Origin: a virus
DNA: 64,000 nt
Virus record (IMG/VR): IMGVR_UViG_3300030419_007196
Coordinates: 60,865 to 124,864 of that record
Strand: one strand, 5' to 3'
The translations under genes were made by a program, and so were the position numbers. Below, one piece after another: positions 1,522 to 4,962 of the stretch. Position 1 is the first letter of the stretch. The number at the start of each line of letters is the position of its first letter. The notes under the pieces were generated by a model. That model did not search any database. It was not told the origin of the DNA and saw only the letters and a list, made by a program, of their open reading frames with translations.

Positions 1522-1715
1522 TATTTTCCTTTGAAGCGAGCTACCACGTCAACGAAACCTTGCGTTCCGACGTATGCTGTAGCGATGATGATCCATTGTT
1601 CTGAATCAACTTTCTCCGCTAAGAGAAGCCCTGTTGTTGTTAGCCATACCAAAAGTTTCTTTGATACAAATCTTTCTAAGTGCCTATCGGCAAATGCTTT
1701 TACTGCTGCCACCAT
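1521..1715 (-). CDS. Holin-like small membrane protein
   Basis: 64 residues. A basic N-terminal helix (residues 1-20) is followed by two hydrophobic stretches, about 22-34 (LLVWLTTTGLLLA) and 41-56 (WIIIATAYVGTQGFVDV), ending in a basic RFKGK tail. Length, two short membrane segments and a charged end are typical of phage holins that permeabilise the inner membrane at lysis. A strong GAGAGGG ribosome site lies 4 nt before the ATG. The gene starts a three-gene membrane-protein run with 1 and 4 nt overlaps. No sequence family is certain, so the call rests on size, topology and context. Confidence 0.6.
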   Translation of the reverse strand: MVAAVKAFADRHLERFVSKKLLVWLTTTGLLLAEKVDSEQWIIIATAYVGTQGFVDVVARFKGK

Positions 1716-1736
1716 TTTACCCTCTCTGGTTAGTTA

Positions 1737-1799
1737 TTAACCGCAGCAGCAATCGCAGCCGCAGTCCTTTTCACATTTACAATTATCACATCCACACAT
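1737..1799 (-). CDS. 20-residue metallothionein-like Cys-rich peptide
   Basis: This short frame encodes MCGCDNCKCEKDCGCDCCCG, with nine Cys in 20 residues at positions 2, 4, 7, 9, 13, 15, 17, 18 and 19. The spacing is dominated by CxC and CC pairs with no hydrophobic core, as in metallothioneins that wrap Zn, Cu or Cd in thiolate clusters. Translation looks real: AAGGA lies exactly 7 nt before the ATG and overlaps the stop codon of the Mre11-Rad50 gene, so coupling is likely. The 21 nt after its stop lead directly to the holin ribosome site. It is much shorter than known bacterial metallothioneins (about 50-60 residues), so the function is inferred from composition only. Confidence 0.6.
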   Translation of the reverse strand: MCGCDNCKCEKDCGCDCCCG

Positions 1800-1806
1800 T
1801 TTTTAT

Positions 1807-1811
1807 TCCTT
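1807..1811 (-). promoter_or_regulatory. Ribosome binding site for the Cys-rich micro-gene
   Basis: The minus strand reads TAAGGA here, giving an AAGGA Shine-Dalgarno 7 nt before the ATG at 1799. The TAA inside it is the stop of the Mre11-Rad50 gene, so ribosomes finishing that gene are placed to restart on the micro-gene. This site is what makes the 20-codon frame credible. Confidence 0.6.
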
Positions 1812-4800
1812 ATTGATTAACAAATGCATATCCGTCATCTGTTTTAGAGATTTCAATAGTCATATCGACAATATCTTTTAAACTCTCTATGTGAGTAATT
1901 AGTAAAGTAACATCAAAATATCCCTTTACAAGATCCAAGATTCGAACAAAACCTTCCATATTTTCAGCGTCTAAAGCAGTCCCCGGCTCATCAAGAATAA
2001 ACAGGTTGCTCTTGGGCATATTACTTACATTCAACAGCGCAATTCTAATAGCTATAGCAGCTAAAGTTTTCTCTGCCCCAGATCCATTTTCCAAAGGTCG
2101 GGGGTCATGTTTAGGATGCTTAATCTGAATGTCAAGCTTATTATCGTTGTTTTCAAAAAATACTTGAAAGTCCACCACATTAGAAAGAACTTTTGCGATT
2201 TCATCGTTAATCAGCGGCAGCGCCCTTTTAATGACATCGAAAGCAATTCCGTTGCTATGCATACACGTCAGAAATAAATGATGTGCTGAATACTCAGCGC
2301 TCAACCTATCTCGCTCCTTCCTCAAGTGCTCTAAATTTTCTAGTTTTTGTTCTAGAGCGCCATGTGTTCCAATCAAAGAATACAAACACTCGTTGCATTC
2401 ACCAATTTTCTTTTGCCTCTCTTCAACTTCAGCTTTTTTAGACTCTAATTCTGAATAAAGCTTTTCTGTATTCTCTAAAAGCTCTTTGTTTTCTTCATAG
2501 TAACGAATCTTTTCCGTCAACTCTTGTATTAGTGAAGTACTCTTTACTAAGCTACCCGACATTCTCTCATGTTGAAATTTTAAACTCATCAAGAGAGATT
2601 TTTCATCCCTCCCCTTGCTTGAAAGTTTATTATAGTTTTCTATTCTAGATCTAATCTTTCTAACATCAAACCCGCCTAATTCACGATTTTTAAAGCCTAG
2701 TTGGTCTTCTAAAGTTTTTATTAATTCTGTTTGTTTGCTGATTTCTTTTTCAGCCTTCAGAGCGCCGTCCATGTATTTGTGTATTGGACAGTGTTCGCTA
2801 CACGGAACATCGTGTAAGACGCGAGTTTGTTTATTATAGTTATCAAGATCCTTTTCAGCATGACCTTTTTGCTGTGTTAGTTTAGCAATCTCTTTCTCAA
2901 TCTCACCAACTCGGCTAAGTTCACTATCAAGAGTGTCGATGTCGATCATCGCTAAAAGTTTTTCGCTCTTTTTAAGAAAGTTTTCCTTTTCACCAATTTG
3001 TTGTAGAAGGTCCTCTATTTTTTTAATAAGCTTATCTTCATGGGCCTCTTGTTCAAGTAATTGCTGTCTAATATCATTAATGTCGATTCTTTCATCTGGA
3101 AGTTCGGATAAATTTGCCTCCAAGTCAGTTATTTCTTTCTGAAGTGTGCCTAGCTCTTCTTTCAAATCAGCACATTCATTTTTCTTCTTCGCAACATCAG
3201 CGCCGGCTTCAAAAATTTCTTTTTTAACCCTCTTAATGTCCTCATCATAATCTATGTCCTTGACCCGCTTTAGAACACCTCTTAATTCTGATACCTCTTC
3301 TTTTGCTAATTTAAATTTTCTCTCAAAGAATTCAAGATCTAAGAATTTAGCCAAAATTTCTTTGCGCCTAGTTGAACCTTCGTTAATAAAGTTCATAGCG
3401 CCCATTTGCGAGGCCATAGAGGTGGTTAGGAAGTCCTCTAAGCTTCCAAAGACATTCCGTATCGCCTTGTCGGTTCCGCCGCGCTCAGTCTGGTTTAAAG
3501 AGCCTTTCTCGTCAGACACCTGATCTACAAAATCGAAGTCCGCTTGAGTTCTCGCCTCATTCGTAGTCTTACCCTTAAGTTTCTTAACATACTTCTCCGA
3601 TTTCCTAGAAATCGTGTAAGTCTTATTATTTGCCTCAATCTCCACCACGCCAGAGCCTTGGTCCTTATTTTGGTTGATAATGTTGTAAGTCTTTCGAATA
3701 TTTTTAGAAGTATTATTATAGATTGTGTAGAGCAGTGAATCAATGATGCTAGATTTACCACTAAAGTTTTTTCCAAAGATTCCCACAGTTCCAGCAAGTT
3801 TAGTAAAATCGACAGAATTGCCTTCTCCGTAGTTGAATAGATTGTCCCAGCCGAACTTCTTAATTTTCCAATGAACGTTCCTAGAAACGTCTTCACTTTC
3901 TTCGACAACCTTATTATATCTTGAATTAAGAGCGTAGACTTCATCCAAAGTTTCCTCAGATGGATTAAAGTCCATCAAGTACTCCTTAATTAGCTCTTGT
4001 TGAGTCTTTTCGTCTCTCAGATTTTCAAACAATTCTGCGTCAATTTTACCTTCAACAGATAGGTCGTTTGCACCATGTCGACTCAAGAAAGTAATTGATT
4101 CTGGCTTAAACCTATGCTTCGCGATCTTTACTGCTCTTCGAAGTTTTTCTAGTGGAATGTTAGAATTTGAAACAAGTCTCAACCTTGCCCCATGCTGACA
4201 TTCGAATTTGTTGGGAATCCTGCCCGTTTTTGTAAGGTTGATTGTGACAAATGGCTTTGGGTTATTAAAATTTATCTTCCTTCTTTCGAAATCTGTCTTA
4301 CTTTTAATGTCCCAAATGTATATCCCCTTGTCGTTGGTTTCGCCAAAGTTTTGTTGTATTGTTGAGCCTGCATAGGCGATGGTGCCTTCCTTGTTGAGAT
4401 CTTGTGTCTTGTGGATGTCTCCTAAAAAAGCATAATCAAAATCATCAAAAATTGAAATGTCGTGCTCGCCATGTTCCATAACAAAACCGATATCTGTTCT
4501 AGAATATTTAACTGCGCCATGATAAAGGCCAATATTAATCTTTTCTGGCTTTGTTGGCTGAACCCAATTGTCCTCGTCAAAGACAGACAGAACATTAAGA
4601 CAAAAATCTTTATCTAGATGGGTTTCGCCTGCATTTTTTAACAAATAAAGACTTGGATGATCCAAGGCTTCTACAATAGGAGTAATAGCATCTTGGCGAT
4701 AAGAGTTGCGCAGGTTACCATCATGATTACCCAGAATGACGTAAGTTGGAGCAATGTTTGCCAAGTTCTTCAAAAAATCTGAACACAGTTCAACGAACTC

Positions 4801-4962
4801 CGGGGAGATCTGTGTTTTAGTATGTGCGATATCTCCACAATGGATAATACAGTCTACCTTTTCTTCTTTAAGCGTTTTGTAAAGCTGTCCAAAAACTTCC
4901 CGATATTCCTTGTGGAATTTTAGGTTTTTGATGTGGGTGTCTGCGATGTGCGCGAATTTCAT
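1810..4962 (-). CDS. Single-chain Mre11-Rad50 (SbcD-SbcC, T4 gp47-gp46) fusion
   Basis: 1050 residues combining two enzymes normally made separately. Residues 1-240 are an Mre11/SbcD phosphoesterase: DTH at 8-10, HCGD with D44, GNHD at 78-81, H148 and GDIH at 181-184, which bind two metal ions for nuclease action. Residues 360-1050 are Rad50/SbcC: Walker A GKNFSGKSS at 397-405, long coiled coils at about 545-890 with a hook-like CSEHC at 721-725, signature NGSGAEKT at 959-966, Walker B LFILDE at 986-991 and the switch His at 1024. The hook is CxxxC instead of the usual CxxC. The complex processes DNA ends and drives phage recombination-dependent replication. The start has an AAAGGT site 8 nt upstream and lies inside the 3' end of the primase gene. 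Confidence 0.93.
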   Translation of the reverse strand: MKFAHIADTHIKNLKFHKEYREVFGQLYKTLKEEKVDCIIHCGDIAHTKTQISPEFVELCSDFLKNLANIAPTYVILGNHDGNLRNSYRQDAITPIVEALDHPSLYLLKNAGETHLDKDFCLNVLSVFDEDNWVQPTKPEKINIGLYHGAVKYSRTDIGFVMEHGEHDISIFDDFDYAFLGDIHKTQDLNKEGTIAYAGSTIQQNFGETNDKGIYIWDIKSKTDFERRKINFNNPKPFVTINLTKTGRIPNKFECQHGARLRLVSNSNIPLEKLRRAVKIAKHRFKPESITFLSRHGANDLSVEGKIDAELFENLRDEKTQQELIKEYLMDFNPSEETLDEVYALNSRYNKVVEESEDVSRNVHWKIKKFGWDNLFNYGEGNSVDFTKLAGTVGIFGKNFSGKSSIIDSLLYTIYNNTSKNIRKTYNIINQNKDQGSGVVEIEANNKTYTISRKSEKYVKKLKGKTTNEARTQADFDFVDQVSDEKGSLNQTERGGTDKAIRNVFGSLEDFLTTSMASQMGAMNFINEGSTRRKEILAKFLDLEFFERKFKLAKEEVSELRGVLKRVKDIDYDEDIKRVKKEIFEAGADVAKKKNECADLKEELGTLQKEITDLEANLSELPDERIDINDIRQQLLEQEAHEDKLIKKIEDLLQQIGEKENFLKKSEKLLAMIDIDTLDSELSRVGEIEKEIAKLTQQKGHAEKDLDNYNKQTRVLHDVPCSEHCPIHKYMDGALKAEKEISKQTELIKTLEDQLGFKNRELGGFDVRKIRSRIENYNKLSSKGRDEKSLLMSLKFQHERMSGSLVKSTSLIQELTEKIRYYEENKELLENTEKLYSELESKKAEVEERQKKIGECNECLYSLIGTHGALEQKLENLEHLRKERDRLSAEYSAHHLFLTCMHSNGIAFDVIKRALPLINDEIAKVLSNVVDFQVFFENNDNKLDIQIKHPKHDPRPLENGSGAEKTLAAIAIRIALLNVSNMPKSNLFILDEPGTALDAENMEGFVRILDLVKGYFDVTLLITHIESLKDIVDMTIEISKTDDGYAFVNQ

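Follow-up and report, generated by a model that had tools for sequence, protein, structure and literature searches.

The locus and its genes

The window, the whole 64,000-nucleotide stretch of viral DNA analysed here, is the end part of its IMG/VR virus contig of 124,864 bases. It carries a micro-gene of 20 codons between a gene for a fused Mre11-Rad50 protein of the SbcD-SbcC type and P0004, which encodes a small membrane protein (Table 1). The original prediction had placed a nine-Cys frame here, with an AAGGA site overlapping the upstream stop codon, and had left its strand unstated. Both the frame and the overlap are confirmed.

Table 1. Features of the micro-gene locus in the window
Feature	Positions	Strand	Description	Basis
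Fused Mre11-Rad50 (SbcD-SbcC type)	1810..4962	minus	1050 aa; upstream gene	Pfam and PHROG
TAAGGAATAAAAA	1800..1812	minus	Mre11-Rad50 stop (1812-1810) overlaps AAGGA of micro-gene (1811-1807); spacer 7 nt	
Micro-gene	1737..1799	minus	20 aa, MCGCDNCKCEKDCGCDCCCG, 9 Cys; ATG start, TAA stop	
Putative RNA stem	1703..1752	minus	Micro-gene 3' half TTGCTGCTGC with P0004 start GGCAGCAG	Predicted pairing
P0004	1521..1715	minus	64 aa, small membrane protein; downstream gene	Relatives

The Cys residues of MCGCDNCKCEKDCGCDCCCG occupy positions 2, 4, 7, 9, 13, 15, 17, 18, and 19. The spacer residues are polar, and the peptide contains neither His nor an aromatic residue. The sequence 5' of the frame reads CAA-TAAGGAATAAAAA-ATG, and a TAAGGA or TGAGGA is retained where relatives have the micro-gene. 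The stop codon is followed by 21 nt and then by the ATG of P0004 at 1715. With a Cys fraction of 0.45, the peptide ranks first among the 783 ATG-started window ORFs of at least 10 aa; the second-highest fraction, 0.33, belongs to a 12-mer. No ORF of at most 25 aa with at least nine Cys arose in 60 windows simulated with a second-order Markov model. When the micro-gene's own contig was searched for the N-terminal five-Cys pattern, no further copy appeared.

The predicted identity of the upstream gene is borne out by Pfam matches to Metallophos (residues 1-184, 4.6e-13) and SMC_N (residues 374-1042, 4.8e-9), and by matches to the SbcC/SbcD-like PHROGs 77 and 100. Its nearest annotated full-length relative, at 30% identity, is from Microcystis phage Mel-JY01, and fused Mre11-Rad50 proteins also occur in uncultured huge phages. 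P0004 adjoins the micro-gene throughout the window clade and in the more distant relative L321. It is possibly holin-like; a single relative gave a weak match to a holin PHROG (E 0.059). Three small minus-strand genes follow P0004, at 1114-1521, 680-1117, and 345-683. One has an N-terminal hydrophobic stretch and a coiled-coil-like tail, another a signal-peptide-like start, and another two CxxC pairs. Together with P0004, they possibly form a candidate lysis group.

Conservation in close relatives

Close relatives were collected via the neighbour P0004 only, and not via the peptide. The micro-gene precedes P0004 in 12 of them, and all nine Cys are kept in 12 of 12. Across these loci, pairwise comparison of the Cys codons gives 48 synonymous differences and not a single nonsynonymous one; in the window clade, TGT predominates at the first four Cys codons and TGC at the last five. 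The non-Cys spacer positions vary far more freely, with a pN of 0.163, and the micro-ORF as a whole has a pN/pS of 0.27. All Cys are also retained in the diverged relatives MCGCENCNCQELCSCSCCCGTK, MCGCEQCDCEYNCDCTCCCMQSDQTGG (L321), and MCGCDVCVCTQDCNCGCCCWEE. Aromatic residues are absent from the window clade, while L318-L320 possess a single Trp and L321 a Tyr.

Several relatives cleanly lack the entire micro-gene. The gap from Rad50 to P0004 measures 96-97 nt with the micro-gene and 17 nt without it, indicating that a unit of about 80 nt, composed of the ribosome-binding site and the ORF, is gained or lost as a compact whole. The original prediction had staked itself on the frame and the Cys pattern persisting in close relatives. 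This is borne out wherever the gene is present, but the gene itself is missing from those several relatives. Judged from these alignments, the micro-gene is a real gene under purifying selection that spares no Cys change.

The proposed coupling to Mre11-Rad50 holds in the window, where the AAGGA site and the stop codon overlap, but it is not specific. Two of the 12 relatives (L038 and L041), as well as L321, contain an extra gene between Rad50 and the micro-gene, and the micro-gene still precedes P0004 in all three. The link to Mre11-Rad50 is thus not essential. It is further weakened by L318-L320, a separate virus group in which MCGCDVCVCTQDCNCGCCCWEE or a near variant lies in unrelated viral neighbourhoods, and by the wider family described below, which has other neighbours. 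The adjacency to Mre11-Rad50 is incidental, as most relatives lie beside other genes.

A wider family in viruses

The family pattern is C-x-C-x2-C-x-C-x3-C-x-C-x-C-C, to which the DNA search form adds -x-C-stop. A looser DNA pattern also picked up low-complexity TGC repeats; these were removed by demanding the stop codon and, at most spacer codons, a first base other than T. The spacing occurs in at least 120 IMG/VR stretches. Nearly every match is a standalone, ATG-started ORF of 20-23 aa, such as MKCDCQVCKCGTKCECTCCDC, and the window micro-gene fits this definition, being a lone ORF of that size with the same Cys spacing. The reversed Cys spacing gave no match, even though the control pattern is less demanding. 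The family alignment contains nine invariant Cys columns, which are partly built in, since the pattern searches demanded most of the Cys; the P0004-based set did not.

The viral copies sit in tightly packed operons: in 87 of 102 viral loci a same-strand gene ends -10 to 40 nt from the first Cys codon. Their contexts are several and unrelated. In some, the micro-gene follows a three-TM holin or a small protein of 87-95 aa; in others, it precedes an FAD/NAD dehydrogenase, adjoins a treble-clef protein, or lies near a primase. A dehydrogenase-like gene follows it in 32 viral loci (for example, L252 and L205), and a treble-clef-like zinc protein follows in 11. Distant relatives of this conserved dehydrogenase-like gene occur in Campylobacter phages, CPX among them. 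A thioredoxin gene (PF00085, 5e-28) starts about 40 nt past the micro-gene in L318 and L319; L320 reaches the edge of its sequence stretch. L180 encodes a head-to-tail double peptide, MRNRQNCNCENCKCQKACNCMKCNCSKSCDCACCDC, on the reverse strand at about 13230. Near the micro-gene in L278, L220, L161, and other stretches lie genes for large viral proteins that open with a Cys motif such as MCKCGCNSCETK or MCNCGCNTCDTK.

A tblastn search of annotated phages with two family members gave no match, which is not evidence of absence because the low-complexity filter probably masks such queries. Searches with the dehydrogenase, treble-clef, and Mre11-Rad50 neighbours for cultured relatives returned distant phages only. 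A phage peptide of this kind had been expected to be an oddity; instead, it belongs to a large family present in marine viruses. By its sequence features, this is a previously unlabelled family of metal-binding-type micro-peptides.

The window type and the large family differ at the C terminus, where the former ends in CCCG and the latter in CCxC; eight Cys are common to both, with identical spacing. They also differ in translation signals: the window type has a Shine-Dalgarno site and occurs in viruses where such sites are frequent (48% of window ORFs), and the CCxC type lacks one and occurs where they are rare (6% at the viral and the bacterial loci alike). The two types could be homologous or convergent, with the Cys spacing as the only basis for comparison, since in 20 residues descent looks the same as convergence. 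Whichever their origin, different virus groups carry the same kind of peptide.

A bacterial counterpart

A scan of 84,980 bacterial and archaeal species returned 20 matching contigs, all from marine Bacteroidota. Seventeen of the 20 share one conserved chromosomal locus in small-genome marine Flavobacteria, located between glutamine synthetase / Na-Ca exchanger and lipoprotein / pirin genes. One of the 17, the L287 copy, lies inside a contig of 1.1 Mb and is thus a cellular gene. In the MAG contig L295, the neighbours are viral. Bacterial loci collected via the lipoprotein neighbour have a pN/pS of 0.22 and no nonsynonymous Cys change. Within the order and the family of the MED-G11 genome, a prevalence search returned that genome alone. 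At the genus level, the lipoprotein neighbour was present in 12 of 25 genomes, and the micro-gene lay beside it in eight of those 12. One further bacterial copy (L289 / L328) has ATA in place of the usual ATG with its Cys frame intact. This may reflect a lost start, an unusual start, or an assembly error.

A probable metallothionein-like peptide

High Cys density, polar spacers, and the lack of His are typical of metallothioneins. The micro-peptides display the sequence traits of this class: a high Cys content in CxC and CC arrangements, few or no aromatic residues, and strict selection on the Cys. Sixteen aligned family members had no match to Pfam or NCBIfam profiles at E values up to 10, and the window peptide had none in PHROG. 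A family profile searched against the PDB returned only wheat Ec metallothionein (2kak), at a non-significant E value of 9.3. Neither the viral nor the bacterial loci showed a conserved neighbour for metal transport or metal resistance.

We favour the reading that the micro-gene encodes a virus-borne metallothionein-like peptide, acting as a Zn/Cu buffer or sink and as a thiol reserve, and assign it a probability of roughly 0.7. Translation would take place from the viral operon while the cell is infected. If nine-Cys metallothionein domains are a guide, the nine thiolates of the peptide would wrap one small metal cluster of about three Zn or about six Cu(I). In the cytoplasm, the peptide may then buffer or sequester Zn/Cu and hold thiols in reserve. 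The time of need would be the breakdown of host metalloproteins, or metal or redox stress in the cell. For the viruses, the micro-gene would be auxiliary, strengthening a host function or standing in for it. The metal-binding part of the original prediction thus stands as the best reading of the sequence, whereas its more specific suggestion, that the peptide supplies metal to Mre11 or the primase, finds no support; the metal of Mre11 nucleases is Mn.

A different possibility is that the ORF acts as a Cys-sensing leader peptide. A shortage of Cys-tRNA would slow the ribosome at the Cys codons, and a stem masking the start of P0004 would set the output of that gene. Mycobacteria are known to attenuate operons through polycysteine leader ORFs. 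The putative stem is what speaks for this mechanism in the window: the 3' half of the micro-ORF can pair with the P0004 start (z -3.8 over 141 nt), the folding z is negative in 12 of 12 clade members, and the stem is found in most of the clade. It might couple translation of the micro-gene and P0004, a tentative suggestion at best. However, the stem is absent in L321 (z 0.54), which has the same order of micro-gene and P0004, and in L318/L319, and a coupling hairpin as a general feature was rejected on this ground. The 21-nt gap between the two genes contains no terminator-like site. TGT/TGC swaps at the Cys codons are about as frequent as other synonymous changes, and it is the spacing of the Cys that is conserved, not merely their number. 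The genes that a leader would control are also inconstant, as the viral neighbours vary and the next same-strand gene in the bacterial locus, where seen, is 223-437 nt away. The tandem copy in L180 fits a binding module, not a leader. A leader function is the main rival reading, and an unlikely one.

The peptide may instead serve as a thiol-redox or zinc donor, delivering Zn or reducing power to a zinc-ribbon primase, a thioredoxin, or an FAD dehydrogenase, and not as a detoxifier. The thioredoxin gene of L318/L319 and the dehydrogenase-like and treble-clef-like genes of the 32 and 11 viral loci would suit such a role. Each of these pairings nevertheless resembles one gene order conserved within a virus lineage, not a partnership formed repeatedly and independently, and no such pairing exists in the window or in bacteria. 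A dedicated donor role is quite unlikely.

A chance ORF is highly improbable: the frame has only 20 codons, and ORFs filling short intergenic gaps are common, but the simulated windows gave nothing similar, the pN/pS is low with every Cys unchanged, the gene is cleanly present or absent with its own ribosome-binding site, and its spacing recurs in the viral stretches and never in reverse.

Returning to the metallothionein-like reading, its broader form is somewhat less secure. Marine viruses and small-genome marine Flavobacteria would share uncatalogued micro-metallothioneins of 20-22 aa, possibly the shortest natural ones, and viruses of several lineages, probably infecting different host groups, would keep them for metal or thiol control in infection. 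This is rather probable.

Comparison with known systems

The micro-peptides resemble wheat Ec metallothionein, the nine-Cys vertebrate β-domain, and Neurospora copper metallothionein in being very short, in a Cys content of 45-50% with CxC and CC arrangements, and in having polar spacers with few or no aromatic residues. They differ in their size of 20-22 aa, their viral occurrence, and the lack of detectable homology, and their metal binding is putative. To our knowledge, they are shorter than known metallothioneins, the Neurospora protein having 25 aa.

With the bacterial metallothioneins SmtA and BmtA, the micro-peptides share a prokaryotic setting, an abundance of Cys, and a presumed role in Zn buffering. 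A GATA-type zinc-finger fold and His residues are common among bacterial metallothioneins (PMC10612145). The window peptide lacks His and, at 20 aa, is too short for such a fold, which places it outside the SmtA/BmtA group.

Searches of the open-access literature, with incomplete coverage, turned up no description of a metallothionein from a virus or phage. The micro-gene falls below the usual gene-calling length and so is not catalogued by name. A global small-protein catalogue predicts ORFs from 30 nt and does not mention metallothionein in its text (PMC11364881); it may contain family members unnamed.

The mycobacterial cysteine-responsive leaders are likewise short Cys-rich ORFs ahead of another gene. 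The micro-peptide differs from them in its conserved Cys spacing, its varied neighbours, and the lack of a terminator.

Viral auxiliary metabolic genes offer a further parallel. Like them, the micro-gene is gained and lost in viruses, and it has a counterpart with a near-identical Cys pattern in marine Bacteroidota. Unlike them, it is shorter than gene callers usually accept, and transfer from host to virus is only conjectural. The family is large and is defined by a simple pattern. If its members bind metal, they would be among the smallest natural metallothioneins, and viral ones, and marine viruses would be managing zinc or copper in the cells they infect with genes that go unreported by standard gene finders.
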